64,000 nt of DNA. Source: Sphingomonas sp. 28-63-12. Lineage in GTDB: Bacteria > Pseudomonadota > Alphaproteobacteria > Sphingomonadales > Sphingomonadaceae. The stretch is from assembly GCA_002281535.1 (NCBI GenBank), contig NCGD01000008.1, positions 1 through 64,000 on the forward strand, given 5' to 3'. The translations under genes were made by a program, and so were the position numbers. Every line of letters starts with the position of its first letter. The stretch's first letter is position 1. Below are positions 50,801 to 64,000 of the stretch, piece after piece. The notes beneath the pieces are model-generated. The model ran no database searches. It was not told the origin of the DNA and saw only the letters and a list, made by a program, of their open reading frames with translations.

Positions 50801-53800
50801 GTACAGGTTCAGCGTATCATTGCCGCTGCCCGTCTGAATGCTGCCGGTGGTGGAACCAGCCTGCAAGTTGATCGTCGTCGCGGCCGCGCCGGTAACGAAC
50901 ACGCCCTTGCCGATCGTCGAACTAGCCGATCCGTAGTTAGTGAAGATCGCGGTGCCCGCGTTGAACTGGACAGCCTCGCCAAAAGTCGCGTCGTTGCCGC
51001 CCATCAGGACGCCGCCTGTAGCGTTGACGATCGTACCGCCGCCCACGGCATTGACCGCAGAGAAGACGCTCGTCGAAATCGTACCCGAATTCAGTACATT
51101 GGCAGTGCCAATCGCCGCCACCGCATCGCCGCCCGCTCCCGACGTGATCGTGCCCCGGTTGGTGAGGGTCAGCACGCTGTTGCTGGCATTGGTGATCGCG
51201 GCAAAGCTATTGCCGTAAAGGGTGCCGTCGTTGATGATCGTGGCGCTTCCAGCGGTGGCAATCGCCGAGCCCGTGCCGCCGGTCGCGGTGAAGACGCCAG
51301 CCGTAACAGTGCCGATACCGATAGTGCCGCCGGCGTTGTTGGTGATTGTTGTCGTACCCGCCGCGTTGATCGCATCGCCGGTGCCGACGATGAAGCCCGC
51401 ATTGGTGACACTCAGCGTACCGCCCGTCGTCAGCACGCCTTGCGCGCCACCCGCGATAACGCTGGCTGCGGTGGTGTTGTTCAGCGTCAACGTGCCGCTG
51501 GTCGACCGCGCGCCATAGGTAAGCAGCGTCGATCCCGTCGCGCCGCCCTGGATCGTGCCGCTGTTGGTGACGATCGTCGTCAGCGCGTTGTTGATCGCGG
51601 CGGTGTAATCAAAGTTGCCGGTCAGGATCGATCCGGTGTTGTTGACCGTCAGGTAACCGCCACCGTTGTTGTTGATGCCGTAATAGATAAACCCCGATGA
51701 ACCGCCGCTTGCCGTGCTGCTGATGAAGGTCCCGTTGTTGGTGACATTAATCGGGTTGGCCATATTGCCGCCCGACACGTTGATACCGGTGCCTGGAAGC
51801 GACAATGTGACGCCGTTATCGATTTGCAGCCGCCCGCCCGCTGTTTGCAGACTTGCGAAAGTGCTCGCGCTGCTTACCGTGATCGACGATCCAATACGAA
51901 GCAAACCGGTCGCACCAACCTGCCAGGCACCGTTGGAACCCGTTTGGCCATTGAGGATCAGCGTCCCGCTGTTCACATTGCCGAAGAACCGCGTAATGCT
52001 GGCAAGCGAAGCGGTGTTGCCCGCGCCGATGTTGAAATTCAGCGTCGACAAATTGGTGCCGCCGGTCAGCGTGCCACCAACGGTGCCGCCGTTCCAGGTG
52101 AAGGTGCCGGCCGTGTTGCCCATCGACACGCTCTGAATCGAGCCACCCGTGTTGAGGGTAAAGGTCGTGGCACCGGTACCGGCAGCTGCATTGTAGTTGC
52201 CCGATAGCAAACCCGCGACGGTCAGTGCCCGCGTGCCCGTGTTGGTCGAAAGAATGTCACCGGTAACGGTCGAGCCGCTGTTGAGCGTAACCGTCGATGC
52301 ATTGGCGTTTGCAAGCCGGATCGCGCCGGTGCCGCCGGTGATGTTGCCGCCCGACTGGTTGGTGATCACGGCGATGCCGTCTTCGACGTCGATGCCATAG
52401 CCATGCGTCGCATCGCTGCCGCCGCTGATCGTGCCGCTATTGGTGATCGTCTGATTCTGGACCGTGAGGGTGGACGCGAGCCGTACACCGGCGAGGCCTG
52501 CGCCTGCGGTGCCCCCGGTCGTCTGGATCGTGCCGGTGTTGGCCAGGCGCAAGATGCCGCCGGTAACGTACACGCCGTTGGTGCCGCCCGTGATCGAGCC
52601 GCCGGTGTTGTTGAGATTGAAGACGTTGGCGGTGTTCCGAATGCCGTCGGTAGTGCCGGTGATCGAACCGGTATTGGTGGTCGTGCCGCCAAAGTTCTGA
52701 AGGCCGACCCCAGCCAAGCCGGTGACGGTGCCCGCATTGGTCAGCGTGCCCATATTGTCGAGCTGGATACCGGTGGCACCGCTGATCAGGCCGCTCGCAT
52801 TGTTAGTGACAACCCCATCGCCGTTGAGATAAACGCCAATGCCGCCGGTACCAGTCGCCCGGATCGTGCCTGAATTGGTGACCGTACCGGGCGTGTTGGT
52901 CGCATAGATGCCATAGCCGACGCCCCCGCCAGCAAGCGCCGCCGTGCCCGTAACCGTGGCGCCCGAGGCGACGGTCATGTCGTACACGCCGTTGAAGCTG
53001 TAGATGCCGGTGCCGGCGGTAACGTTGGCGCCGATCGCGACCGAGCCGGTATTGGCGCGGCTGACCTGGTTGATGTCGATGCCCCGACTGGTTGCCGAAA
53101 TCGCTGCCGTGGTGCTGATGTTGATCGCGCCGGTGGAGGTGCCGGTCGTCGAGGCGACAATGCCCTTTGCCGGCGGCGTCGTGCCGCCGATTGCCGCACC
53201 GACCGTGACGACAACGTTGCTCGTCCCGGCGCTGCTCGTCGCGAAGATGCCCGTGCCGGTGCCGCTCGACGTGCTGTTGATCGTGCCGCCGCCGCTGGTG
53301 GTAATGGTCGCGCCGCCACCGCCGGACACCTGGATGCCCGTTGGCGCGGTGATTGCCGATTGCGACTGGACGATGCCGGTGCTGGCCGCAGCGGGCGCGA
53401 TGTTGATGCCGACTTGCGTGGCGTTGATCGTCCCACCGGTCGAGTTGACCAGCGCATAGAGCTGCCGAGTATCGGTGGTCGTCACATTAACGCCGGTGGC
53501 GAAACCCGAAATCGTCGACGTGCCAAGATAGATTTCGGGATTGAGCAGCGCCGCAACGCTGATGCCGGTGACTGCCGTGCCGTTGGCAATGATGGTCTGG
53601 GACTGGCCTTGCGAATTGAAGCCGGCAAAGCCGTTGGGATTATTGACGATGAAGCCGTAGCTGCCGGTGAAAGTCGAGCCACTCGAGGTGAACCCCACGC
53701 CCAAATTGCCGGTGTTGCTGATCGTGACCGCAGCGCCGCCGCTTACGGTCGTCGAGATCGCGTTATTGCCGCTGAACGTAACGCCCAATCCGCCATTACC

Positions 53801-54148
53801 TGAGGGCACTTCGATGGACAGCGCATTGGGGGTTGGCCCGGTGACCGTCTGGTTGATCGTAACGCCGTTGACCGTGACGCCTGAGCCATCCGAAATATCA
53901 TAGATGCGAACACCGCCGCCGGTCGCTGTCTGATCGTCTGGCGTGCCGGTATCGCTGACAATCGTGCCGCCGCCCGTAGGGTTCACCACTGTCTGCGCCA
54001 TCGCGGGGCTCGCCGAAAGGGCGACACCAACCAGCGCGCTCGATCCGAGCAGCGCGCCACGCCGCCAGCCGCTCAGCCGCCCAGCCTTCTCGCCATTGGT
54101 TACAGCGAAACCGGCCGACGCGCTTGCGCCGTTCAACGAATTTGACAT
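41813..54148 (-). CDS. giant autotransporter (~4,111 aa) with autotransporter-associated beta-strand repeats
   Basis: ATG 54148 (MSNSLNGASASAGFAV) is preferred to the upstream open frame: a basic-hydrophobic signal follows, ending SASPAMAQ near residue 50, and GGGG lies upstream. The passenger is almost entirely beta-helix: many GGLTKTGAGTLTLSGANTYTG-type PATR repeats (PF12951-like), Thr/Asn/Gly-rich, then seven ~90-residue GTLNGTGTLTAA units. The last ~280 residues (from about base 42660) form the translocator barrel, ending in SLNLRIGF with the required terminal Phe. It is probably a surface adhesin or biofilm factor. No protease or lipase catalytic domain was seen. Confidence 0.92.
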   Translation of the reverse strand: MSNSLNGASASAGFAVTNGEKAGRLSGWRRGALLGSSALVGVALSASPAMAQTVVNPTGGGTIVSDTGTPDDQTATGGGVRIYDISDGSGVTVNGVTINQTVTGPTPNALSIEVPSGNGGLGVTFSGNNAISTTVSGGAAVTISNTGNLGVGFTSSGSTFTGSYGFIVNNPNGFAGFNSQGQSQTIIANGTAVTGISVAALLNPEIYLGTSTISGFATGVNVTTTDTRQLYALVNSTGGTINATQVGINIAPAAASTGIVQSQSAITAPTGIQVSGGGGATITTSGGGTINSTSSGTGTGIFATSSAGTSNVVVTVGAAIGGTTPPAKGIVASTTGTSTGAINISTTAAISATSRGIDINQVSRANTGSVAIGANVTAGTGIYSFNGVYDMTVASGATVTGTAALAGGGVGYGIYATNTPGTVTNSGTIRATGTGGIGVYLNGDGVVTNNASGLISGATGIQLDNMGTLTNAGTVTGLAGVGLQNFGGTTTNTGSITGTTDGIRNTANVFNLNNTGGSITGGTNGVYVTGGILRLANTGTIQTTGGTAGAGLAGVRLASTLTVQNQTITNSGTISGGSDATHGYGIDVEDGIAVITNQSGGNITGGTGAIRLANANASTVTLNSGSTVTGDILSTNTGTRALTVAGLLSGNYNAAAGTGATTFTLNTGGSIQSVSMGNTAGTFTWNGGTVGGTLTGGTNLSTLNFNIGAGNTASLASITRFFGNVNSGTLILNGQTGSNGAWQVGATGLLRIGSSITVSSASTFASLQTAGGRLQIDNGVTLSLPGTGINVSGGNMANPINVTNNGTFISSTASGGSSGFIYYGINNNGGGYLTVNNTGSILTGNFDYTAAINNALTTIVTNSGTIQGGATGSTLLTYGARSTSGTLTLNNTTAASVIAGGAQGVLTTGGTLSVTNAGFIVGTGDAINAAGTTTITNNAGGTIGIGTVTAGVFTATGGTGSAIATAGSATIINDGTLYGNSFAAITNASNSVLTLTNRGTITSGAGGDAVAAIGTANVLNSGTISTSVFSAVNAVGGGTIVNATGGVLMGGNDATFGEAVQFNAGTAIFTNYGSASSTIGKGVFVTGAAATTINLQAGSTTGSIQTGSGNDTLNLYNGRGTASTATVDAPSGITLQNAGTLAGATIGAIDLGGGTNTLTLRGTGDGTAANGAAGTIASASVAGLTNLSKLDSGMWTLTGAGVYAGTTTVSGGTLRVLNTGNGLGDGNVSIASGATLQFDNQTGGQYAIKSTTFTGAGRLLFTGSTGSSTSFGNAGNVTVSLSQGGLIDVQSGTVAGSASGQGFFTGNLGSLNIASGAIFDGVEGTIIVDGLTGAGLLRGGFFGSGSTTIGIANGSATFTGTIADSTNFPSPLILNKVGTGTQTLSGVNTYTGGTNVLAGTLVVTTATNSFAADGLGSSGTVAISAGATVRYDNPYTSVITGPSGSQIYASHNTYTGAGTLAFTGNAASLTVLDHLSGTADVALSQGGLINVQSGHVLVRGAGVFAGNQGNLAIATGAVFEAAADITVNSLTGGGSYIGGGSTILTVGVAGGSGQFDGTIANGGSPAGLTKVGAGVETLSGVNTYSGATTISGGTLALTGAGSIASSSGVIANGIFDISGHTGTASIRSLTGSGTVNVGQNALSLTAASGTFSGVIAGTIGSGFYSLQINGSQTLTGVNTYTGWTSVNTGSTLFLSGNGSIAASQAIGLFGTLNISGHTGGVTVQNVNDQSFTPASIILGANTLTTNSLTLSGTASGTGGLTFANGFSSTLFGANTYTGTTTIGTSAALFLNGTGSITSSAVVNNGSLNIASHTGGTSIVNLSGAGTTALGANTLTLTNASGTYSGAITGTGGLTKQGAGTYILSGSNSYTGTTTISAGTLQGTTNSIAGSSIVDNATLTYNQAFSGTATQNISGSGRVTVTGLGANTLTFAGNLTNDGVDVTGTSIVSFGGTNSTSGRTVNVSAVSTTINILDNASLSSGGTPTIFSGATGTIVNNLGAIASTSDIAVNLSQGGTFNNGSASDSVAGATGGFIGFASGSALATINNYGAIRGTSLDGINAPTLNLTNFGTGIVTGGRFGIGGNVLTIGNAGLIVGSTSGVSASSTVAITNSGLIGAGTLSGTTQASYTASGGAGIVASNGGTITNLNGGTISGGTASIQLTGAGYTVNLNAGSTTTGLIDASGTSGTNSYTVAGTLNGGLAAGGGNDTVNLDTSATVTGSIDGGAGTDAVVLTGSGTSTLSSDITGFESLTKNGTGTFTLSGTNSGFNTVAINTGTLNSASASAIGNAAVTVASGATFGVDTAQAIGSLAGAGNVTLSDTLTAGGNDSSTIFSGIASGVGGLTKTGAGTLTLSGANTFTGDVTIAGGTLAYGANDVLDDGVAVTVNSGTTFNLNGFSDTIGTLNLYGTLSNGGLLTAGTYNAYAGSTINQAISSGTLNIYGDTSLTSATTASPVNIITGTLALSQGGSLSQSRVVADGTLDLSALGGASVGISTLNKIDQFYADFHGSTTPMGPNQLSFRAAVYGVNAIIGFTNASGQIINVIRTSNDDVNFYNVVSGDPLIGTLCIAGANTACLTATGSVQDLIPTITALNNGSGLYIAGQSSFDATIGDLLAGSGSSQILSLAGSGSVILGGTTLVIGNADDAFSGAISGAGGVTLTAGNQALTGTNSYTGLTTLDGGTLTLDGGAAIADGNMVLVNAGGTLALLASERIGSLNGAGAVSLNANTLFLGTNDLDSSFSGIASGTGGITKTGAGTLTLSGANSYIGYTSIYGGSLVFGASDVLADTSTLIIENATADLGANNDTIAALLLTNGTLNGTGTLTAGEYALQDSVINANLGTGYLHTSASNMLTTLNGTSAASTVESEAGTLALGASDRLLDTATLYVDRGSIFDMQGFSDTVGSLGLQGTLDGTGTLTAATYFLTAGIVNGNLGTGSVYVSRDTLSGDTVTTLNGTSAATSIQVNNLATLALGAADRIADTTTVSVNAGGTLDIAGFNDTVGSLTLGGTLNGTGTLTAASYVLAGGTVNANIGDGTLTQVSGSSVLNGTSTAATVAINGGTLVLGASNRLADVAAVVVASGAALDLNSFTDTVGSLTVAGTLSGSGTLTAATYSLTGGTVNANLGTGILTQTSGTSTLFGTSAAATVRINGGTLALGASERLANNAALSIASGATLDLRGFDETVGLASISGTLNSNPVRSQASTRIGGAQGALVQLVQGTGTLTAASYDLIGATINGNLGTGTLNQLSGTSTLNGTAAATVVAITGGTLVLGAADRLADTAAVSVASGSTLALGAFTDTVGSLALAGTLSGTGTLTAAQYQLTGATVNANLGTGSLFQLGGVSTLNGTAAATAVQVQGGTLMLGTSNRLADAANVAVSSGATLNLGGNLDTVGIVQLAGTLAGTGSLTAAQYQLTGATVNANLGAGTLFQLGGTSTLNGTAAATAVAINGGTLALGANERLADNAAVQIASGATFDLTGKTETIGALGGTGTLALGSGRLVIGGTNADSGFGGALTGSGDVDKNGTGTFTLASNLAQTGRINLNAGTTQFTGSTAGSVRIQGGTLTGGAAIAGNLALTSGTFAPGTSAQPIAAFSAGSLTVSGGTLAFDLGGAANNFAADQLRVSGAAALTGGTVATRTIDPTANYRLSQNYVLVSAAALTGAFANGGSFAAIGNNADLQWRLRYDLIPNSVVLELRKQVDFTTGLGAGASGNQMAVGGALNGGAFMASDNWAGILNTINDQDGPTRRATFDSISGESVSDISSATIIATTGFTDLLRQRLSTGASGGGDANLLTGLVGGKQALVALVATAPLDGAATLSGASGSADSVSDKRGGVWLQGFGANGTINGQSGQAKVGTYSAGVAGGIDIRSGNVTVGGAFSVSQVETQISSRTSRNTGTLYQGGGYVAYDDGRFYGSVIGSYFSGDINSRRSVFVGGTQFGVADGQTMTRGYSAGAALGYRIAGSGGVVITPQASFTATGVERDAFNETGAGGLSLQVARDHRVLYAATAEGRISRPFDALGGVVEPYIGGGAIFSFGDLDTLSVNRFSGAPTGTGTFTIQGARLAPFTSLVNAGIDVRPTSNVRLGLQGEARLSNRQSEQRISLNLRIGF
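43690..45660 (-). repeat. seven tandem ~270-300 bp repeats in the autotransporter passenger
   Basis: Units share N[AG]NLGTG, LNGT[AS]AAT, GGTLALGA..RLAD and TVGSL.L.GTL.GTGTLTAA. Adjacent units near 43800-43930 and 44080-44210 are visibly similar at the DNA level too, so recombination could change copy number. One unit carries an extra ~23-residue insert at about 44502-44575. Confidence 0.85.
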
Positions 54149-54282
54149 GAGATGTGCCCCAAGAAAAAAGTAACACCGGTCACCATTTTCGGGCAGCGGC
54201 CCAAAAAACACTGGTAAACGGGGCCTTTGCCATAGGGCAGGTCCGGGCAAACGGCATTGAACAGATGTGTCACAAACTTGTA

Positions 54283-54302
54283 CGATCGTTTCACGACGAT
54301 CG
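54283..54302. promoter_or_regulatory. inverted repeat upstream of the autotransporter
   Basis: CGATCGT (54283-54289) and ACGATCG (54296-54302) form 7-bp perfect arms with a 6-nt spacer, 135 bp upstream of the autotransporter ATG and 47 bp beyond the end of the AraC-type gene. It could be an operator or a hairpin ending the upstream transcript; there is no U-tract. The intergenic stretch 54149-54348 holds nothing else I can name. Confidence 0.35.
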
Positions 54303-54348
54303 GCCCCAGTACAGAATCGGGACAGGGCCTGGATGCCCTCTTTCCGAT

Positions 54349-55368
54349 TCAGCCCGGGGTATCTTCGGCCGGACTGGCCGCCACCAGCGCCCGATAATCG
54401 CGCGGTGACATGCCGAATCGGGTGCGAAAGGCGCGACTGAAATGCGGGGCATCGCTGAACCCCAGGCGATGCGCGATATTGCCGATCGGCTCGGCGCGCG
54501 TGAGATCGGCGAGCGCGGCACGCGCGCGCTCCAGCCGCTGGCGCGCAACATAATGATGAATGCCCCCCTCGGCGCGGAAGGCAGCGAACATCCGGGCCCG
54601 TGACACACCAAGCACCCCGCACAATTCGGCGATGGTGATCTTCCCGTCGCCCAGCCGGCGGTCAATTTCCGCCTCGACGCGCTGCAGCAGCAGCTTTTCA
54701 GAGGTGACCACAGGCAATGACCGCGGCCGCACCTCCGCCAGCGCAATCACCGCCAGCTCCTGAAACACCCGCCCCAGTCCCTGGGCGGCGAGAATTTCAA
54801 GCCGCGGCAGGGCGCGGCGCGTCTGTTCGGCATGCGCGAACAGCATCTCGGCCACTGCCGCTGGCACGACAAGGCCGTGGAGATCGTGAAGCGTGCCAAA
54901 CAGCTGCAGCGCCAGGGGCCGAGGGATAACGATGGAATAAGTGATACTGGCCGACGAAACATGCAGCGACGGCCGGCCGAGATCATGAAAATGCAGCGTG
55001 CCGCCGGGTTCGTAGAATGCCCGGCCGTCCATGTCGCCCTGCGCCAGCCCCTCGATCATCATGTTGATGATGATCGGATCGAAATCGGATGACCGGATAT
55101 CGCTTCGCCGTCGTTCCCACCGCATTCCCGTGATTTTGGTATAAACGAACGTCACTTCGCCAAGCTGCGCGGATTCCCAGCTGGTGTTGAACGGCTCGCT
55201 GGGTTCGGTCCGATAGATTTGGGTTCGCCGCGGCCAATCGCGCCGGAGCCATGCCTGATAGCGATCGGCCGGCGGCAAATGATCGGTGGAATAGCGCAAC
55301 ACCGGAATCGTATCGGGGCCAGCCGGGGCGTCGCCTGGAAAAGCGGGAAGTTTCAAAAATATGGCCAT
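54349..55368 (-). CDS. AraC-family transcriptional regulator (first of a tandem pair)
   Basis: 339 residues. The N-terminal two thirds is an AraC-binding-like sensing domain (VLRYSTDHLPPADRYQAWLRRDW, later FHDLGRPSLHVSS). The C-terminal ~100 residues carry the double HTH (ITIAELCGVLGVSRARMFAAFRAEGGIHHYVARQRLERAR, then IGNIAHRLGFSDAPHFSRAFRTRFGMSPRDYRA). The next minus-strand gene is the giant autotransporter, 200 bp further, which is a plausible target. The effector molecule is unknown. It is a paralogue of the gene at 55428. Confidence 0.92.
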   Translation of the reverse strand: MAIFLKLPAFPGDAPAGPDTIPVLRYSTDHLPPADRYQAWLRRDWPRRTQIYRTEPSEPFNTSWESAQLGEVTFVYTKITGMRWERRRSDIRSSDFDPIIINMMIEGLAQGDMDGRAFYEPGGTLHFHDLGRPSLHVSSASITYSIVIPRPLALQLFGTLHDLHGLVVPAAVAEMLFAHAEQTRRALPRLEILAAQGLGRVFQELAVIALAEVRPRSLPVVTSEKLLLQRVEAEIDRRLGDGKITIAELCGVLGVSRARMFAAFRAEGGIHHYVARQRLERARAALADLTRAEPIGNIAHRLGFSDAPHFSRAFRTRFGMSPRDYRALVAASPAEDTPG

Positions 55369-55427
55369 TCTTCAACAGATTGGAAATGGAATGTGTCGCA
55401 AGGCAGCTGCGGTCGGCTGACGTCGAC

Positions 55428-56387
55428 TCATCGCTTCGGCTGACGGGCGCGATAGTCGCTGGGGGATTCGCCATAGCGCTCGCGGAAAGTCCGGCTGAAA
55501 TGCGCGGCGTCTGAAAAGCCCAGCCGCTCAGCAATGGCGCTGATCCGCTCTTCATTGGCAGGATCATCAAGCGCCAGCATTGCGGCGGCAAGGCGGGTCT
55601 GGCGGATATAGGCCTGCACGCCGCCATCGCCGTCGAACAGCCGATGCAGGGTGCTGCGCGAGATTTGCAGACGACGGCAAAGATTGGCGACGGTGAGTGA
55701 TGCAGACCCGAGATTATGGCGGATCTCGTTTCGGACACGAAGCGCCAATGTTTCCTTTAGGATCCCGAGCGCGGCGGCTTCGGCTCGTCCAGTCGCATTG
55801 ACCGCCAGCACAAGCATATCGAGCATCGTCCGGGCCGCACGGGGGCCCTCGGACTCAAGCATGTAAGGCAGGGCTTCGCGCAGATGGTTGAGGTGCGAGC
55901 GCAGCATTGCCGCTGCGGCGGGCGGCAGCACCAGGCCATGCAACGCATGGACATCAAGCCCAGCCGCGATCGCCATCGGCCGGGAAACGACAATCTGTGT
56001 CGATCGCCCGCTCGACGATTCATGGCAGGACGTCTGGGCGAGATCGGTCAGGACCGCACTGCCCGGGCCCTGGCTGAACGCCCGCTCCCCGGCCCGGCCC
56101 TGCGCCTGGATGTCCAGGCTGATGTTGACCGACAGCGAATCGCTGGCGCGGGACCTGAGGTGATCGGCATTGCGCTGCCAGCGCTGGCCAGTGATGTCGG
56201 CAAAGGCAAGAATCAACTCGCCGAGCTGGGCCACGTCGCTTTCGGCGTTGAAAGTGGTGAGCGGGGTGGTGTCAAACAGCGGCGAAAAATTGAGGGTGTT
56301 GCTGTGCAGCCATAGGTCGTGGCGGTCTTCGGCGCGAACATTGGCAACGGAACGATGAGTGACGATAATTCGGCGTAAATCGCTCAT
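55428..56387 (-). CDS. AraC-family transcriptional regulator (second of a tandem pair)
   Basis: 319 residues from ATG 56387 (MSDLRRIIVTHRSVANVRAEDRHDLW); an in-frame ATG at 56477 would add 30 residues without family support. The C-terminus has the AraC HTH pair: LTVANLCRRLQISRSTLHRLFDGDGGVQAYIRQTRLAAA and ISAIAERLGFSDAAHFSRTFRERYGESPSDYRA. It sits 59 bp before its paralogue on the same strand, so they are probably co-transcribed. The two differ strongly in the sensing domain, which suggests different signals. Confidence 0.9.
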   Translation of the reverse strand: MSDLRRIIVTHRSVANVRAEDRHDLWLHSNTLNFSPLFDTTPLTTFNAESDVAQLGELILAFADITGQRWQRNADHLRSRASDSLSVNISLDIQAQGRAGERAFSQGPGSAVLTDLAQTSCHESSSGRSTQIVVSRPMAIAAGLDVHALHGLVLPPAAAAMLRSHLNHLREALPYMLESEGPRAARTMLDMLVLAVNATGRAEAAALGILKETLALRVRNEIRHNLGSASLTVANLCRRLQISRSTLHRLFDGDGGVQAYIRQTRLAAAMLALDDPANEERISAIAERLGFSDAAHFSRTFRERYGESPSDYRARQPKR

Positions 56388-56586
56388 ATGGTAATCCGAC
56401 AACTGCCCGAAGGCAGTACGCGCGCAAAAAACACCTGCGCCGGTCAAGCTCTTAGGGGGAAATGCACCGCCGTCCATGATTTATGCGCGGGCCTGCTGGC
56501 CTATTCAGGGACGAGTGAGTTAACGACGCCTTTGAGAAACCGGCCCCGGCTGCGCGGCCGGGCACGTCATTAACCGGCCTGTCGCA

Positions 56587-57261
56587 TCATAGTTCCGTCG
56601 CAGCACCAGCTGTGGGCTGCGGCACCACAGAATCGCCCGGCCCGGCCAGCCCGGACAGTAGCGCGATCAGCCAGTCGTTGACCGTGCAGTCGATCACCAG
56701 ATGAACGCGATCACTGGTGCCGCGATTGGCCACGCTGTGCGGATCGGCCAGCCGGAGATACCAGGCGCTGCCCGGCGTCATCGCGATCGGGCGCCGGTTG
56801 ACCTGAAACGTCACCTGATCGTTGGTCGTGATCGGCACATGAATGCGCGCGGTGCCCCATTCCGCAGCAAGATCGTGATCGCGATGCTCCTTGATCACCG
56901 ACCCGGGCGCGAGGCGCATCAACCGTACGGCCTGTAGCGGACATTGAAACGCGGCCAGCACGGTTCGAATATAGGGCATGCGCGACAGCAGCGGCGCGTC
57001 TTCAAAGGCGGTCGCCGACGGGTCGGCATAGATTTGCATCACCGGATGTGTGGCCCCGGCGCTGTGCCGCAACGGCAGCACCGTCCAGCTGCCCTGGTAA
57101 TTTTGCGTGACGAGATGATCGATCCACCCCAGATCGTCAGCAACAGCAAGATCGGATCGAAGCCGATCGACATCAAACGTCATCGGCAGCAATATCCGGT
57201 CTGGTACCGCGAAAGGCGATTGTTGCGACAGCGAGAGCAGGATAACATCCCCAAAAGACAA
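56587..57261 (-). CDS. aspartyl/asparaginyl beta-hydroxylase family dioxygenase
   Basis: 224 residues if TTG 57261 is the start; ATG 57183 (MTFDVDRLRSDL) would give 198 and cannot be excluded. The cupin core shows the iron ligands in KEHRDHDLA, a 2-oxoglutarate-contacting RIHVPITTND, and the distal ligand in LADPHSVANRGTSDRVHLVID. The N-terminal GSWTVLPLR motif is typical. The family hydroxylates Asp or Asn side chains in proteins or peptides. It is divergent from, and only 41 bp away from, the sulfotransferase/kinase/cyclase operon, so a tailoring role there is likely but inferred. Confidence 0.87.
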   Translation of the reverse strand: MSFGDVILLSLSQQSPFAVPDRILLPMTFDVDRLRSDLAVADDLGWIDHLVTQNYQGSWTVLPLRHSAGATHPVMQIYADPSATAFEDAPLLSRMPYIRTVLAAFQCPLQAVRLMRLAPGSVIKEHRDHDLAAEWGTARIHVPITTNDQVTFQVNRRPIAMTPGSAWYLRLADPHSVANRGTSDRVHLVIDCTVNDWLIALLSGLAGPGDSVVPQPTAGAATEL

Positions 57262-57302: not shown

Positions 57303-58565
57303 ATGCCTGAAAAGCTATTGTTACACACTATTGACAGTCCTGATACCGATCCAAATTTCGCGTCGCTGGCACAGTTTCGTGCCTGTATTCGTACCGACCC
57401 CGTCGCCCAGCTGCGGCTTGCATCAATCGAGACGCCAGACCTGTTCATCGCGGCGGTTGAGGCCGAGGCAACTCGATGCGGCATCATGCTGTCGGCAGAC
57501 CATATCCGGGCGGCGGTGCGCGCCGATCCGCTGGGGCTCGACCGGTTTGACCAGACACCTGCCGATGTCGCGGGGTGGCCTGGCCTTGGCTGGCGACCGG
57601 TCGCGCTTGTTGCGGCCATGGGCGAATGGGTCATCGATTGGGCGCATTTTGCCGGCAAGCCCCTGACCGAGCCATTCTACGAGGAATCGCTGCGCGCTGC
57701 CCGACAGCGTCCGTTCAACCGGCTGATGCGGATGCGCACGACGCTGGCGGCGTTGGTTGATCCGGCGGTCGATTCGGCGCCGGCGACGCTGGCGGTGCCC
57801 GATGGCCTGATCTTTCATCTGTCGCGCTGCGGTTCGACATTGGTGGCGCAGATGCTGGCGGCGATCAGGGGGGTAACGATCCTGTCGGAGCCGCCGCCGC
57901 TTGACGGCATTATCCAGCTCGTCCAGGCCAATCCTGACCTGTCGATCGATACGCAGGTGATGCTGGTGCGCGCCATGGTGGGTGCGCTTGGGCGGCCGGA
58001 CGGCAGCGGCGCGACAGGACCATTCATCGTCAAGCTCGACAGCTGGCACAGCCGGGCGCTGCCGCTGCTGCGGCTGGCTTTCCCCGAAACGCCCTGGATA
58101 TTCCTCTACCGCGAGCCAATCGACATCCTGGTATCGCAACATCGCATTCGGGGCATGCAGGCCGTGCCGGGGATTTTGCCGGCAAACATCTTCGGGATCG
58201 CTGGCGCCACGACCATGCCCCTCGATGCCTATTGCGCCCACGTGCTGGTCGCAATTTGCCGCGGGATCCTTGATCACCCCGCCATCGGCGGCGGGCTGCT
58301 GGTCAATTATGACGCGCTGCCGGATGCGGTTACATCCGACATCCTGCCGCATTTCGGCATCATGACCGATGCCGACGATCAGGCGGCAATGCACAGTGCT
58401 TCACGTCGTAATGCCAAGGCACCGCGCGAATTGTTCAACCCCGACACCGCTGGCAAGCGCGCCGACGCCACCCCAACGCTGCACAGCGCCGCCGCGCTGG
58501 TCGCCGATGTCTATCACCAGCTGGAGGAACGGCGCCGGTCGGCGGCGCGGTTGGCCGATGCTTGA
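57303..58565 (+). CDS. Nif11-like N-domain fused to a sulfotransferase-like domain
   Basis: 420 residues with a GGGAG ribosome binding site. Residues ~18-72 (FRACIRTDPVAQLRLAS, FIAAVEAEATRCGIMLSADHI) have the helix pattern of Nif11-type leader domains. Residues ~92-150 form an unassigned linker domain (WRPVALVAAMGEWVIDWAHF). Residues ~168 onward are sulfotransferase-like: HLSRCGSTLVAQML at 172-184 is the PAPS 5'-phosphosulfate loop (SRCGST, no Lys) and LYREPIDILVSQ near 268-279 is the 3'-phosphate region. The stop overlaps the kinase gene by 8 nt. It may bind a peptide substrate through the N-domain; that is inference. Confidence 0.75.
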   Translation: MPEKLLLHTIDSPDTDPNFASLAQFRACIRTDPVAQLRLASIETPDLFIAAVEAEATRCGIMLSADHIRAAVRADPLGLDRFDQTPADVAGWPGLGWRPVALVAAMGEWVIDWAHFAGKPLTEPFYEESLRAARQRPFNRLMRMRTTLAALVDPAVDSAPATLAVPDGLIFHLSRCGSTLVAQMLAAIRGVTILSEPPPLDGIIQLVQANPDLSIDTQVMLVRAMVGALGRPDGSGATGPFIVKLDSWHSRALPLLRLAFPETPWIFLYREPIDILVSQHRIRGMQAVPGILPANIFGIAGATTMPLDAYCAHVLVAICRGILDHPAIGGGLLVNYDALPDAVTSDILPHFGIMTDADDQAAMHSASRRNAKAPRELFNPDTAGKRADATPTLHSAAALVADVYHQLEERRRSAARLADA

Positions 58566-59514
58566 TGTTTGGCCGGCGGCGTTGGCGCCGCGCCATCTCT
58601 ACCGGTCGGCTGGGCTGATGCTGGCCAGCGACATCGCTCTGCCGGGTCAGGTGCCGGCTCCGGCGGATGCGCGGCCCGCGATCCGGATCGAGCGCGGTCC
58701 GGTGCCAAGAGGTCTGGACGGCGCAATCGCTGGCGGCCCGACCTGGCAGTATAACGAGCGCCAGATCCTGCTCGACATTCCGACCATCGGGCAGTTCCTG
58801 ATCGAAGACGGATGCTCGATCCGCTACGCCCCCGATTCTTGTGCGACCCCGGCGGACGTCGCCGCCTTTGTGGCCGGCACGATCCTCGGCATCCTGCTGC
58901 ACCAGCGCGGGACGATCCTGATCCATGCCAGCGCGATCGAGATTGGCGGGTGCGCGGTGCTGTTCACCGGGCCGTCCGGCGCGGGCAAATCAACGCTGAC
59001 AGCGGCCCTCGGCCAGCGCGGCTATCGGCAATTTGCCGACGACCAATGCGCGGTATCGATCGATCCAGCCGGGCGGGTCTGGGTTGCCAGTGACGGCGCC
59101 GCACCAAGGCTTTGGACACAATCCATCGCGGCGCTTGCGCTCGACGACCGGCCGAAAGAGGCAGTGCGGCCCAACATCGAAAAATATCATCTTGAGGCAC
59201 ATCCGGACAGTCCGGCCTCCCTTCCCTTCGGCGCACTCTATAGCCTGGCGGAGGATCGCCCGCCCAAGATTGCCGGCATTGCCTGGCCCAACATCGCCGA
59301 TGCGGCAAAATTGCTATTTGCAGAATCCTATCGCCCGGAGCTGACAAAGGCGCTTGATCAGCGCGCGCTCTATTTCCGCGCCAGCGCTGCGATCGCCGCC
59401 GCTGGCCGGCATGTCTACACGCTGACCCGGCCGCGCCGGTTTGAAGCAATTGCAGCGGTGATCGACTCGCTTGAGGCGCACTGGGCATCCATCGGCCTGA
59501 CCGTGGCACCATGA
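58558..59514 (+). CDS. HPr kinase/phosphorylase-like kinase (RiPP-type)
   Basis: 318 residues from ATG 58558, which overlaps the previous stop (ATGCTTGA); the frame is open further upstream but only as a shadow. A P-loop GPSGAGKST lies at residues 138-146, followed by QFADDQCAVS with the acidic metal site and a PRLWTQS segment. This is the HprK C-terminal fold without the N-terminal DRTGG-type domain of true HprK. Relatives in lasso peptide clusters (paeninodin type) phosphorylate the C-terminal Ser of the precursor. No PTS HPr gene is nearby. Confidence 0.88.
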   Translation: MLDVWPAALAPRHLYRSAGLMLASDIALPGQVPAPADARPAIRIERGPVPRGLDGAIAGGPTWQYNERQILLDIPTIGQFLIEDGCSIRYAPDSCATPADVAAFVAGTILGILLHQRGTILIHASAIEIGGCAVLFTGPSGAGKSTLTAALGQRGYRQFADDQCAVSIDPAGRVWVASDGAAPRLWTQSIAALALDDRPKEAVRPNIEKYHLEAHPDSPASLPFGALYSLAEDRPPKIAGIAWPNIADAAKLLFAESYRPELTKALDQRALYFRASAAIAAAGRHVYTLTRPRRFEAIAAVIDSLEAHWASIGLTVAP

Positions 59515-60422
59515 AACGAAGCTTCTGGCTGGCGTCCTACCCGAAATCGGGCAACACATGGTTTCGAATCCTGCTGGCCAATCTGGCCGATCCGGGCGAC
59601 ACTCCGATCAATATCAACATGATCGACAGTACCGAGGGGATCGCCAGCGCGCGCTGGCGATTTGACGATCATCTGCTGATCGAATCCGGCCTGCTGGCCA
59701 ACGACACCATCGATCAGTTGCGCCCGGCTTTCCATGCCTATCTCGCCGAACGGACCAGCGACGACGTGCCGGACAAGATGCCCGTGCGTTTCGTGAAAAC
59801 GCACGATGCCTATACGCTGAACACGCGGGGAGAGCCCGTGATGGGCGGCCGCCGCGGCGGCGCTGGCGTTTTGCTGATCGTGCGCGATCCGCGCGACGTG
59901 GTCAGTTCATTTGCCCATCATTTCGGCCAGTCGCTCGATCAGGCGATCGGCACGATGAACAATCCCCGTTATCGCCTTGCCGGCGACCGATCCGGCCAGC
60001 CCCCGCAACTGCGACAGCGCCTGCTCGACTGGAGCGGCTTTGTGGCCAGCTGGCTCGATCAGCGGGACATCCCGGTCCATTTGATCCGGTATGAAGATTT
60101 GCATCAAGCACCGCAGGTCACCCTCGCGACGGCGCTCGACTTTGTCGGCTGGGATCCAGGGCCGGCGGCGATTGACCGGGCAATCGGGGCGGCCGCCATG
60201 GACGAACTCCAGCGGCAGGAGGCCCGCCATGGCTTTGGCGAAGGCGGCATTAGGGCTCAGTGCTTTTTCAGACGCGGCCTGGCTGGCGGCTGGCGGGGCG
60301 ATCTCAACGCCACGCAGATCGCCAGGATAGAGCAGAATCATTGGCCAATGATGAAGCGGCTGGGCTATAGCGCAAGTAACGTAAATTACATCGCAATACC
60401 GCAGGAGAAGATTGACCAATGA
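59511..60422 (+). CDS. sulfotransferase (PAPS-dependent)
   Basis: 303 residues. The 5'-phosphosulfate loop is YPKSGNTWFR at residues 10-19, with Lys12 as expected for catalysis. VRFVKTHDAY at ~92-101 carries the catalytic His. VRDPRDVVSSFAHHFGQ from residue 124 is the 3'-phosphate-binding motif, and the RRGLAGGWRGDL region near residue 264 matches the RKG-x-x-G-x-W closing loop. It is thus a full cytosolic-type sulfotransferase. ATGA overlaps at both ends couple it to the kinase and to the PqqD-like gene, which suggests it acts on the same peptide product. Confidence 0.93.
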   Translation: MKRSFWLASYPKSGNTWFRILLANLADPGDTPININMIDSTEGIASARWRFDDHLLIESGLLANDTIDQLRPAFHAYLAERTSDDVPDKMPVRFVKTHDAYTLNTRGEPVMGGRRGGAGVLLIVRDPRDVVSSFAHHFGQSLDQAIGTMNNPRYRLAGDRSGQPPQLRQRLLDWSGFVASWLDQRDIPVHLIRYEDLHQAPQVTLATALDFVGWDPGPAAIDRAIGAAAMDELQRQEARHGFGEGGIRAQCFFRRGLAGGWRGDLNATQIARIEQNHWPMMKRLGYSASNVNYIAIPQEKIDQ

Positions 60423-60682
60423 TACATCGACAAGGCGATTGGGTCGCGGCCAGGGTTGGTGATGAGATGGTGATGATGAGTGTATCTAACGGCCAATATC
60501 TTGGGCTAAACATGGTTGGTGCCTGTATCTGGGATATGCTGGAGACACCGAAGTCAATCGATGCGATTGAAGCGCAGTTGCTTACCCAATTCGACGTATC
60601 GGCAGAGACCTGCCGCGCCGAAGTGGCGGCATTTATCGAAAAGTTAGCCGCGCAACAGGCCATCGCCATCGATCAACAATGA
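60419..60682 (+). CDS. PqqD-family peptide recognition protein (lasso B1-like)
   Basis: 87 residues. The segments VAARVGDEMVMMSVSNGQYLGLNMVGACIWDML, then SIDAIEAQLLTQFDVSAETCRAEVAAFIEKL, form the complete PqqD/RRE winged-helix pattern. RREs bind the leader peptide of RiPP precursors and hand it to the modifying enzymes; in lasso clusters the stand-alone form is B1. It is coupled by ATGA overlaps to the sulfotransferase before it and the cyclase-like gene after it. Confidence 0.92.
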   Translation: MIHRQGDWVAARVGDEMVMMSVSNGQYLGLNMVGACIWDMLETPKSIDAIEAQLLTQFDVSAETCRAEVAAFIEKLAAQQAIAIDQQ

Positions 60683-62589
60683 GTGCCATCTATGGCATCT
60701 GGCGGTTTGATGGTACTCAGGTCGATCCGGGCGACATTGATCGGATGGGCGCAACGATGGCCCACCGCGCAATTGACGGGCGCAACAGCTTTATCGACGG
60801 GGCGATCGGCTTGGGGCATGGGCTGGCGCGCGAAACGCGCGAGGATGCGCACGATGCGCAGCCGCTTCATGATCGTGACGCCGGCCTGATCTTGGTCGCC
60901 GATGCTCGGATCGACAATCGCGAAGCACTGGCCGAATTGCTGGCGATCGATCCGACCAGCCTGGCGACGCTGCCCGACAGTGCGCTAATCCTTCACGCCT
61001 ATCGACGCTGGGGTGCGGCCTGCGCGGCGCAGCTGCTGGGCGATTTTGCCTTTGCGATCTGGGACGTGGCGGCGCGCAAATTAGTGCTGGGCCGCGATCA
61101 TATGGGCCAGCGCTATATCCATTATCATCATGGCGAGGGCTTTTTCGCCTTCGCCAGCGAACCCAAGGCGCTGCTGAGTCTGATCGAGGTGCCGCGTGCC
61201 CTGAATGACGCCGCCATCGCCCGTTTGCTCTGCCTGGATTTCCAGTCCGCCGATGGGGCGACGATGTTCCAGGGGATTACCGGCCTGCTCGGCGGCACAA
61301 CGCTGACGATCGCTGCCGATCGCCCGCCAAAGGAGCAGCGCTATTGGACGATCGGGCCGGATCCCGCCCATCTCGACCATGACGACGCCTATTATGTGCG
61401 CACCTATCGGCAACTGCTGGCCGAGGCGGTCGCCTGCCGCGTCCGGCGCGCCATCGCCCCACCGGGATTGTTGCTGAGCGGCGGCTTTGACAGCAGCGCC
61501 ATCGCTGCCCTTAGCGGCCCCGCCCTACCGCCAGGGATGAAGCTGGTTACCGTCACCTCCGCGCTGGCCCCGGGCAGCAATGATCCCCGCGACGCGCGCG
61601 CCAAGGTGGAGTGGTGCCTGCAAACGATGCCGCATCTCGATCATTGCTGGTTCGTCCGAACAACGGAAACGCCGTTTGACGATTTCGAACAATTATGTCG
61701 CGCCCTTGACCGTCCGCCAGACCCGACCTGCCATGTGAGCCGTGCCTTTCACCAGAGCCTCGCCGCACGGGGCTGCCGGGTCATGATGGACGGATTTGGG
61801 GGCGACCAGACGCTCAACCCGCGCCGTCACCGGGCGCTGTCGGCGCTGCTGGCGCGGGGGCGGATCGGGCGGTTCGTGCGCGAAGTCCGGGCCAGCGCTG
61901 CGCGAGAAAATGTGCCGGCGCGATCGCTCGCCTGGATCGCAGTTCGCCAAGTCCTGCCGCGGCCAGCAAGGCGATGGTGGCGGCGCATCCGTCATGGCCC
62001 GGCGGCATTCAGCCGCAACTTTTATGCCGCGCCCCCGCTACTCGCCCGCATGGTCAAGAGCCGCCTGTTGTTGCCACCCGATCTCTTGCGGCTGTACGAA
62101 AGGCAGGATGCCCGCGCGCTCGATGTCGCGATGCTGCACGCCATCCAACGCCTTCCGCATCCCAACCAGGCGATCGAATCTGCCAGTTGCGGGCTGTTGT
62201 TGACGAACCCGATGCTCGACAAGCGCATCGTGGCATTTGGGCAGGCCATACCGGAACATCTTCATTTTGCCGACGGCCGGATGCGCCACCTTGCCCGCCT
62301 GGCCCTGCAGGACATCCTGCCACCGGCACTGCTCGCAGCTGCGCGCGGACAGGAATATTTCGACCCAAGCTTCAGGGACACCGTCGACGGCATGACGGCG
62401 GCGATCACTGACCTAATCACCAGGATGGCCGACAATCCAGTCCTCAACAACTATATCGATGTCGATCGCCTTCGCGCCGACCAGCAAGCGGGACAATTGT
62501 TGGACGGCCCGCCCAGCCAGGCACTGCGGCTCATCAACACGCTCAGAATTGCGCGGTATATTGATTGGTTTGACCGCCAAAATCGATGA
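60679..62589 (+). CDS. asparagine-synthetase-like protein (lasso cyclase C-like)
   Basis: 636 residues. An N-terminal Ntn glutaminase-like domain (SAIYGIWRFDG, MAHRAIDG, DARIDNREALAELL) lacks the nucleophilic Cys2: residue 2 is Ser. The synthetase domain has the PPi loop SGGFDSS at residues 267-273 and an MMDGFGGDQTLN motif. Lasso cyclases (McjC type) use this domain to adenylate a Glu/Asp side chain and close the macrolactam. Genes 3 and 4 of the operon flank it upstream. No transglutaminase-like B2 protease and no ABC exporter follow. Confidence 0.9.
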   Translation: MSAIYGIWRFDGTQVDPGDIDRMGATMAHRAIDGRNSFIDGAIGLGHGLARETREDAHDAQPLHDRDAGLILVADARIDNREALAELLAIDPTSLATLPDSALILHAYRRWGAACAAQLLGDFAFAIWDVAARKLVLGRDHMGQRYIHYHHGEGFFAFASEPKALLSLIEVPRALNDAAIARLLCLDFQSADGATMFQGITGLLGGTTLTIAADRPPKEQRYWTIGPDPAHLDHDDAYYVRTYRQLLAEAVACRVRRAIAPPGLLLSGGFDSSAIAALSGPALPPGMKLVTVTSALAPGSNDPRDARAKVEWCLQTMPHLDHCWFVRTTETPFDDFEQLCRALDRPPDPTCHVSRAFHQSLAARGCRVMMDGFGGDQTLNPRRHRALSALLARGRIGRFVREVRASAARENVPARSLAWIAVRQVLPRPARRWWRRIRHGPAAFSRNFYAAPPLLARMVKSRLLLPPDLLRLYERQDARALDVAMLHAIQRLPHPNQAIESASCGLLLTNPMLDKRIVAFGQAIPEHLHFADGRMRHLARLALQDILPPALLAAARGQEYFDPSFRDTVDGMTAAITDLITRMADNPVLNNYIDVDRLRADQQAGQLLDGPPSQALRLINTLRIARYIDWFDRQNR

Positions 62590-62706: not shown

Positions 62707-62868
62707 TCAACTGACTGGGCCACCCATGCCACCAGGGACCCCCGGGACCGGCTGACCTTCAGGAGTGGACGGTGAGCTGCCTGACAACGTGTCCAGAACA
62801 ATCTCCGAGACAATCACCAAAGGCGTTTGCCAGGGGCGTTTCGGCTCAACGTCATCTCGATTAGTCAT
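62707..62868 (-). CDS. candidate lasso-type RiPP precursor peptide (53 aa)
   Basis: A short minus-strand ORF, convergent with the cyclase gene, with AAGGGG 7 nt before the ATG. It begins MTNRDDVEPKRPW; the leader shows W13-x-x-P16 followed by an LVIVSEIV hydrophobic stretch, like the Y/W-x-x-P leaders bound by PqqD-type proteins. Thr27 would be the penultimate leader residue if cleavage follows Leu28. The putative core (from Ser29 or Gly30) has Glu37 at position 9 or 8, ideal for a macrolactam, then a Gly/Pro/Val-rich tail ending in Ser53, a possible kinase target. Homology cannot be tested here. Confidence 0.65.
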   Translation of the reverse strand: MTNRDDVEPKRPWQTPLVIVSEIVLDTLSGSSPSTPEGQPVPGVPGGMGGPVS

Positions 62869-63251
62869 AGTTTAGCCCCTTACCCATGCCATTTTGACAG
62901 CAATCTCCTAAACAATAGTGGGAGCCATGTCCATATACCCGCGCCCCAACTGCGCAGTCAGCTGCTCCCCTGACGCCGCCAGCTATTTTGTCATTGCCCT
63001 ATGGCAAAGTTAATCCACTATCGGAAAATTTATGACGAAGCTGACCTTATCGCATTTTATAGCATTGATTGATTTCAAGACTCACATCGGACGACATATC
63101 AATAACAATGATATTACGGTAACAAAATTGTTGCAGCGCACCTCAACAATGGCCTTGCAACGTTTTTCGAGATTCTTATGCTTGCAGGCATCAAGGCCCG
63201 TTAATCGAGTCGTTTTGGAAACGGCGCACAATACCAGGGGGAGGCGTTACA
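62869..63251. other. low-GC intergenic region between precursor ORF and tail-collar gene
   Basis: Base composition falls clearly below that of the neighbours. The region should hold the divergent promoters of the precursor ORF (minus) and the tail-collar gene (plus). A TTGACA lies at 62894-62899 but without a well-spaced -10. The only plus-strand ORF (63032-63271) has no recognisable motif and runs into the collar gene start, so I do not call it. Confidence 0.5.
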
Positions 63252-63761
63252 ATGAATCCGTTCATTGGTGAAGTGAAGCTGCTACCATGGAATTGGGCGC
63301 CGAAGGGATGGGCGTTTTGTGACGGCAGGCTCTTGCCTATTCAACAAAATACGGCACTCTTTTCTTTGCTTGGCACCCAATATGGTGGCAATGGAACCAC
63401 TAATTTTGCTTTGCCCGATTTGCGCGGCCGCACGCCTGAACACTATAGCAACTCCCTGCCGCAAGGCGCGGCAGTTGGCGTAGAGACCGTTGGCCTGACG
63501 CTGACGACGATGCCCGCCCATACACACGGGTTTTCTGCAACATCGGCAACGGCGAGCGCCAATTCGGCGGCTAATGCGATCATTGGTACCGATCCTTCGG
63601 GCCCAATCGACTTCCTGGCAGCCGGCCCTGCCGCCCCCTTTACCATCACCCCAACATCGATCGGCATTACCGGGAATGGCATTCCGCACGAAAATATGCA
63701 GCCCTATCTGGTGATGAACTACTGCATCGCCCTGGTGGGCATTTTCCCGTCACGCAATTGA
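63252..63761 (+). CDS. tail-collar domain protein (MdpB / microcystin-dependent-protein-like)
   Basis: 169 residues with GGGGGAGG upstream. FIGEVKLLPWNWAPKGWAFCDGRLLPIQQNTALFSLLGTQYGGNGTTNFALPDLRGRTP is the phage tail collar domain (PF07484 type). The remainder, MPAHTHGFSA and an NMQPYLVMNYCIALVGIFPSRN end, is the standard finish of stand-alone MdpB-like proteins. These are short relatives of phage fibre tips; their cellular function is unclear. A second copy follows 36 bp later. A link to the eCIS 42 kb away or to the adjacent RiPP locus is possible but unproven. Confidence 0.9.
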   Translation: MNPFIGEVKLLPWNWAPKGWAFCDGRLLPIQQNTALFSLLGTQYGGNGTTNFALPDLRGRTPEHYSNSLPQGAAVGVETVGLTLTTMPAHTHGFSATSATASANSAANAIIGTDPSGPIDFLAAGPAAPFTITPTSIGITGNGIPHENMQPYLVMNYCIALVGIFPSRN

Positions 63762-63797: not shown

Positions 63798-64000
63798 ATG
63801 TCCGAACAATTCCTGGGTGAAGTTCGCATGTTTGGGGGCAATTTTGCACCGACAGGCTGGGCGTTGTGCAATGGCCAATTAATGTCGATCTCGCAGAATT
63901 CGGCGCTGTTTTCGCTGATCGGCACCACTTATGGCGGCGACGGCGTGCAGACATTTGGTTTGCCCGACATGCGCGGGCGCTTGCCGATCTCGCAGGGCAC
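63798..64000 (+). CDS. tail-collar domain protein, second copy (3' partial)
   Basis: Starts at ATG 63798 after GAGGGAGGGG and runs off the window after about 67 codons. The visible part, SEQFLGEVRMFGGNFAPTG, then ALCNGQLMSISQNSALFSLIG and FGLPDMRGRLPISQG, is a collar domain close to that of the preceding gene. Tandem arrays of two or three such genes are usual, so a third copy may lie outside. Confidence 0.9.
   Translation, partial: MSEQFLGEVRMFGGNFAPTGWALCNGQLMSISQNSALFSLIGTTYGGDGVQTFGLPDMRGRLPISQG

Follow-up and report, generated by a model that had tools for sequence, protein, structure and literature searches.

The window analysed here is the whole stretch of 64,000 nucleotides at the start of contig NCGD01000008.1 of Sphingomonas sp. 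28-63-12, and coordinates given without a locus label refer to it. Near its end, a series of plus-strand genes with similarity to lasso peptide enzymes is accompanied by a short open reading frame (ORF) on the opposite strand, which is here called gene A. The features are as follows, with the putative assignments and their basis.

56587..57261, minus strand: aspartyl/asparaginyl hydroxylase, a syntenic neighbour (PF05118, 53.6 bits; synteny)
57303..58565, plus strand: divergent sulfotransferase ST1 (PF13469, 21.7 bits, below the cut-off of 27)
58558..59514, plus strand: HprK-like kinase with H123, K144, D161 and D162 (NCBIfam HprK_rel_A 41.9 bits and Pfam Hpr_kinase_C 29.8 bits, both below cut-off)
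59511..60422, plus strand: sulfotransferase ST2 (PF00685, 53.4 bits; PDB relatives TEG12/Teg14; motifs YPKSGNTW and RDPRDV)
60419..60682, plus strand: B1, leader-binding RRE protein of the PqqD family (PF05402, 64.7 bits; NCBIfam lasso_PqqD_Bac, 72 bits, cut-off 80)
60679..62589, plus strand: lasso cyclase C, asparagine-synthetase-like (Pfam Asn_synthase, 92.8 bits; NCBIfam lass_lactam_cya, 337 bits, cut-off 525)
62707..62868, minus strand: gene A, candidate precursor peptide gene of 53 codons (ORF, homologues in two other genomes, synteny, selection)
62710..62712, minus strand: codon of the C-terminal Ser53, kept in four close precursors
62710..62784, minus strand: predicted core, residues 29-53 in the preferred register, with a presumed S29-E37 ring (alignment and scan for WxxP ORFs)
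62785..62868, minus strand: predicted leader (residues 1-28), carrying W13-x-x-P16 and, in the preferred register, T27 at -2 (four-precursor alignment, offsets in 47 family precursors)
62876..62881, minus strand: ribosome binding site AAGGGG, 7 nt before the ATG (sequence)
63252..63761, plus strand: first tail-collar gene (PF07484, 92.8 bits), divergent from the precursor across a gap of 383 bases
63798..64000, plus strand: second tail-collar gene, cut by the window end (PF07484, 106.2 bits); a third collar gene follows

Gene A thus lies inside a 662-base gap between the cyclase end at 62589 and the first tail-collar start at 63252, both on the plus strand; scans of this gap for promoters and terminators gave none above shuffled sequences. 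The collar genes run on beyond the window to about 64885, and a B2 leader peptidase gene (PF13471) and an ABC transporter gene were found about 2.6 to 4.8 kb beyond it, so that the A, B1, B2, C and D components are all present. Together, B1, B2 and C score above the gathering scores of Pfam PqqD, Transglut_core3 and Asn_synthase, while the lasso-specific NCBIfam models leave B1 (72 of 80 bits) and C (337 of 525 bits) under their cut-offs, these models being typed as exceptions that may not cover this branch. B1 has a PDB relative in TbiB1 (5v1u), and the kinase matched PDB entry 1jb1 in a profile search (E 1e-4). Two homologues of ST1 scored 31.2 and 27.0 bits against PF13469, i.e., one above and one at the cut-off. 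AlphaFold models built from three-row alignments were too poor to use, with a mean pLDDT of 45.4 for ST1 and 43.8 for the kinase. On the minus strand, two AraC-like ORFs (54349-56477), of which that at 55428-56477 matches HTH_18, lie just upstream of the hydroxylase gene and could regulate the lasso cluster; a further minus-strand ORF (41813-54622) has 4269 codons, many repeats and an autotransporter-like look.

The translation of gene A is MTNRDDVEPKRPWQTPLVIVSEIVLDTLSGSSPSTPEGQPVPGVPGGMGGPVS, a peptide of 53 amino acids with an ATG start. It had been proposed as a lasso precursor in a sequence-only reading of the window, and the features named there are all present in the ORF: AAGGGG 7 nt before the ATG, W13-x-x-P16, the stretch LVIVSEIV, T27-L28 preceding S29-G30, E37 at core position 8-9, and the C-terminal Ser53. 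The accompanying remark that the ORF is too short for the usual gene callers was not confirmed, since 53 codons exceeds their usual minimum. Scans against Pfam and NCBIfam assigned the ORF to no family at E<=1. When 295 genomes of the genus, including its own, were searched, homologues of gene A were retrieved from two of the 294 others, namely G202, which has two copies (E 7.5e-12 and 6.1e-9), and G143 (E 2.6e-6), where the stop inside the match is the peptide's own stop. These homologues lie in the corresponding gap of a syntenic cluster and, like gene A, run opposite to the cyclase; the gene order is common to all three genomes: hydroxylase (opposite strand), ST1, kinase, ST2, B1, C and precursor (opposite strand), followed by three collar genes, GNAT, a small ORF, a DsbA-like gene, B2, the ABC transporter and DedA. 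Conservation beside homologous operons, which the sequence-only reading had named as its check, was therefore seen in place in the two closest clusters, and a divergent counterpart was found in the same gap and orientation in four more. A cyclase-alignment scan with two narrow patterns returned only the two known clusters, JAIERC010000132.1 (MAG, Sphingomonas sp.) and LNFI01000032.1 (MAG, Sphingomonadales bacterium Ga0077557). In G202 (L007, 10781-11504), a piece of the cyclase 3'-end lies between the duplicated precursors, and the two cores differ.

Alignment of the four close precursors revealed 20 invariant columns, including W13, P16, T27, G30, E37 and the last Ser, with cores that differ. 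In five between-genome comparisons, the leaders diverged at 0.69-0.88 of synonymous and 0.23-0.31 of non-synonymous sites; the gene A leader is under purifying selection. The 53-codon ORF is real, and homology, synteny and selection on the leader support the earlier proposal that it is, very probably, a lasso peptide precursor. It is to be noted that loose motif scans do yield chance ORFs: across 23 loci, about five of the ORFs picked up by a loose motif pattern with a ribosome site were judged chance, and the motif alone is therefore insufficient as proof. Some relatives also have precursors far from their enzymes. It is nonetheless most improbable that gene A is itself a chance reading frame with the true precursor elsewhere, given its homology, synteny and selection. 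Furthermore, the surrounding 19 kb held no second candidate, and a profile of the four precursors found, in its own genome, the gene A place as sole match. The same profile, run over 397 sampled genomes of the family (G143 and G202 lying outside the sample), found no member beyond the own genome, indicating that this precursor type is narrow.

The position of leader cleavage was approached through residue offsets. An acid at core position 7-9 is present, E37 being core residue 9 (or 8). Among 47 tabulated precursors of the wider family, W+14 is Thr in 22 and Val or Ile in nine, and W+16 is Gly in 25; Ile or Val at -2 has been reported for Sphingomonadales precursors in the available account (PMC10368454). 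These offsets place core residue 1 at W+16, here S29, and the favoured register accordingly has T27 at -2, S29 as the first core residue and a predicted ring of nine closed on E37. Cleavage one residue later, after S29, would instead yield a core of G30-S53 with a ring of eight (G30-E37) and Leu28 at -2. This register appears the less likely of the two, although it draws on several facts: the four close precursors all have G30 but differ at residue 29, Gly is a common first residue of lasso cores, and the YxxP motif of BsfA is described as starting at -17 (PMC10368454), a spacing that would make G30 residue 1 here. However, T27 is likewise invariant in the four close precursors, and the offsets of the 47 family precursors point to S29.

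To place the kinase and the terminal serine in a wider frame, we surveyed the family with the kinase profile, which at E<=1e-20 matched 69 of the 397 sampled genomes, at 86 places among the matches listed. Eighty loci cover 81 of these 86 places and the own cluster is one more; with L002, L007 and L008, the survey comprised 83 loci. A cyclase match was also present at 54 of the 83, and these 54 had matches to a sulfotransferase (40), B1 (46), the hydroxylase (19) and a collar gene (14), all of which are lower bounds, since the matches come from tblastn searches with the own proteins over stretches of at most about 20 kb. At the 54 loci, short ORFs were sought in which a ribosome site is combined with an aromatic-xxP motif and with an acidic residue at ring distance, any last residue being allowed. 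Fifty WxxP ORFs were found, 41 of them ending in Ser, and 19 Y/FxxP ORFs, four of them ending in Ser. Ser-ending candidates were present at 39 of the 54 loci and absent from 15 in this first scan; a laxer scan of 14 of these 15, whose output was restricted to ORFs with a terminal Ser or with W as first motif residue, added candidates at four (L068, L097, L105 and L118). Two of the nine WxxP ORFs without a terminal Ser, both at L100 and ending in Asp and Glu, look like true precursors, and the other seven were taken as chance by judgement. The 47-row offset table consists of 45 Ser-ending candidates plus the two of L100 and is thus not an independent count of Ser.

As a control, 20 B2 places were taken from among the matches listed for 151 genomes of the genus, mostly from the top of the list. 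A kinase match was found at six of them and at none of the other 14. At these 14 kinase-free loci, six precursors were recognised at five loci, of which five end in Asp and one in Glu, and none carries WxxP; three ORFs at L121 and L122, none of which has a terminal Ser, were regarded as chance and excluded from the count. With Ser ends in 41 of 50 ORFs at kinase-plus-cyclase loci versus none of six at kinase-free loci, the kinase and the C-terminal Ser go together, an association that reviews, in the parts available, state for PadeK, ThcoK and SyanK (PMC9266682, PMC8498205). The His-Lys-Asp-Asp residues reported for lasso kinases (PMC9266682, in the portion available) are all present in the own kinase as H123, K144, D161 and D162, its family scores being below cut-off; they are kept in 53, 54, 54 and 52, respectively, of the 54 kinase-plus-cyclase loci. 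They are also kept at all 29 kinase loci that have no recognised cyclase, and are therefore no proof of a lasso role. On contig C25 (L041, 9507-10454), the own genome has a second HprK-like gene, outside any lasso cluster; it is flanked by a reductase gene and an amidohydrolase gene, and nothing else within 13 kb matched proteins of the lasso cluster. Searching plasmids with the kinase yielded 13 records, none of which reached 60% identity.

Since Ser ends occur at kinase loci and Asp or Glu ends at kinase-free clusters, it is likely, judging from sequence comparison, that the adjacent kinase phosphorylates Ser53. The sequence-only reading had regarded gene A as the substrate of the neighbouring kinase and cyclase, and this is well supported, both by the synteny and by the co-occurrence of kinase and C-terminal Ser. 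A different target is conceivable, since BsfK is described as phosphorylating Ser3 of the BsfA core and not the last Ser (PMC10368454), and S31 is residue 3 in the preferred register; the C-terminal Ser would then be otherwise employed. We consider action on such an internal Ser improbable, because the S31 position, while Ser or Thr in the four close precursors, is variable across the wider family, whereas 45 of the 47 tabulated precursors (a table made up by choice of Ser-ending ORFs and L100) have Ser in last place, and that Ser is the reported target of known sphingomonad and Firmicutes kinases (PMC9266682, as far as that account goes).

Regarding further tailoring, it is plausible from the gene content that the predicted sulfotransferases act on the gene A peptide. 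The own genome has an APS kinase, so that the sulfate donor can be made. The own core is without Tyr, and Tyr from W+16 onward occurs in 16 of 36 tabulated precursors at sulfotransferase loci. A sulfotransferase gene has been noted in some Firmicutes lasso clusters (PMC8498205, in the sections available), and no sulfated lasso peptide was found in the literature searched, coverage of which is partial. The Asp/Asn hydroxylase may be a further tailoring enzyme, as its match accompanies 19 of the 54 kinase-plus-cyclase loci. The N-terminal part of ST1 (57303-57540) and of several homologues bears a weak likeness to Nif11/NHLP-type RiPP leader domains, with a best E of 0.0043 (L129) and 0.014 for the own ST1, all below cut-offs.

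Overall, we put at roughly 85% the probability that gene A encodes the precursor of a lasso peptide in a cluster that comprises A, B1, B2, C and a transporter together with the kinase, two sulfotransferases and an Asp/Asn hydroxylase. In the proposed pathway, B1 would bind the leader through the WxxP motif, and the HprK-like kinase would phosphorylate the C-terminal Ser53 of the linear precursor. B2 would then cut after residue 28, with T27 at -2, whereupon C would join the amino group of S29 to the side chain of E37, forming a ring of nine around the tail, and the transporter would export the product.

By the features tested, the system is one of the kinase-bearing lasso clusters and would work like them; additional enzymes and an unusual layout set it apart. 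The SyanA/SyanK cluster of Sphingobium yanoikuyae resembles it in host group and in its HprK-like kinase, and SyanA has a C-terminal Ser that is (poly)phosphorylated by SyanK, gene A also ending in Ser (PMC8498205, PMC9266682). Compared by description, the present cluster differs in its two sulfotransferases, hydroxylase, opposite-strand precursor and collar genes, which go unmentioned for Syan in the portions of these accounts available. The paeninodin cluster (PadeA/PadeK, Paenibacillus) is described as similar in having split B1 and B2 and a kinase, PadeK, that targets the C-terminal Ser of the linear precursor, but it belongs to Firmicutes and has another gene order. Precursors are stated to share little except the last Ser (PMC8498205, from the section available). 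The Bsf cluster of Bradymonas, by the partial account at hand, likewise has a YxxP-type leader, kinase, B1, B2, C and D, but its kinase acts on Ser3, Ile is at -2, and a nucleotidyltransferase replaces the sulfotransferases (PMC10368454). Kinase-free sphingomonad clusters such as that of sphingocin share the host group and the B and C enzymes, whereas Asp or Glu is the last residue of the sphingocin precursor, as described, and of our six kinase-free precursors, all without WxxP and without a kinase match (PMC11006600). The phenanthrene-related lasso cluster of Sphingomonas BPH was considered as a functional clue and set aside, being uninformative on function here because the available description mentions no kinase (PMC11006600).

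The position of gene A beside tail-collar genes, on which the sequence-only reading made no remark (nor on the hydroxylase), recurs elsewhere. The own assembly has three collar-domain genes, all of them inside the lasso cluster. Collar matches were found in 31 of the 47 genomes with kinase-plus-cyclase loci (83 matches in 35 groups), and 13 of the 35 groups lay within 10 kb of kinase-type lasso genes versus 0.32 expected from random placement (P = 3e-18, a statistic that ignores relatedness), with one more at 10.1 kb. The 13 near groups represent seven genera; five are from the own genus, of which two (G143 and G202) had been chosen for holding a precursor. Fifteen loci have a collar gene as well as a recognised precursor; L056 and L129, where a collar match was found but no precursor recognised, are not among them. 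The two genes were separated by <=405 bases at 12 of the 15 and by 4.3 to 5.0 kb at three, and divergent, convergent and same-strand orientations all occurred. The present layout, with the precursor between C and the collar genes, opposite to C and divergent from the collar, was seen at L002, L007, L008, L042, L043, L044 and L126, all of the own genus except L044, which is from another. Collar genes (PF07484), usually two or three in a row, stand by precursors at L042, L043, L044, L049, L068, L072, L074, L126 and L135. Collar groups distant from kinase clusters do not as a rule carry precursors: of the 20 such groups covered (of 22), only two, in G504 and G645, have one nearby. No paper treating lasso peptides together with tail-collar proteins was found in the literature searched, and the neighbourhood is a gene-order observation without known mechanism.

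Several precursors were located away from their enzymes. At L068 and L072, the precursors adjoin collar genes, and their distance to the cyclase is 2.2 to 7.6 kb. G504 has a set of three collar genes, and 46 bases past the stop codon of the last one a precursor begins; the kinase cluster of this genome, at which no precursor was recognised in the first and laxer scans, lies about 225 kb away. A profile of this G504 subfamily matched 15 of the 397 genomes at 30 loci, some matches being weak, of which six lie by collar genes, eight by lasso genes and 16 by neither within 1.5 kb; one of the six collar-side loci is in G645 and had been missed by the collar-group scan. Fourteen of the 16 isolated loci read as Ser-ending peptides, in G317, G461, G504, G529, G618 (an assembly in many short contigs) and G645. 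WxxP, Ser-ending precursors distant from lasso enzymes were noted at L149 (6981-7121) and at L166, L177, L178, L182, L183, L186, L187, L190, L168, L184, L179 and L189, in genomes G317, G461, G504, G618 and G645. One enzyme set may thus serve several scattered peptides. We tentatively raise the possibility, which we hold to be doubtful, that sphingomonad kinase-type precursors and collar proteins form one functional unit, in which the collars would carry, display, receive or guard against the modified peptide, the precursor would stay near the collars even off the enzymes, and scattered precursors would be processed in trans.

Gene A provides a concrete candidate substrate for a lasso cluster in which a kinase, two sulfotransferases and a hydroxylase come together, and lasso sulfation is thereby directly testable. 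The 45 Ser-ending candidates from one family allow the rules of the kinase, of cleavage and of the ring to be read from sequence, and the repeated neighbourhood of collar genes offers a first lead to the role of both these precursors and the collar genes.
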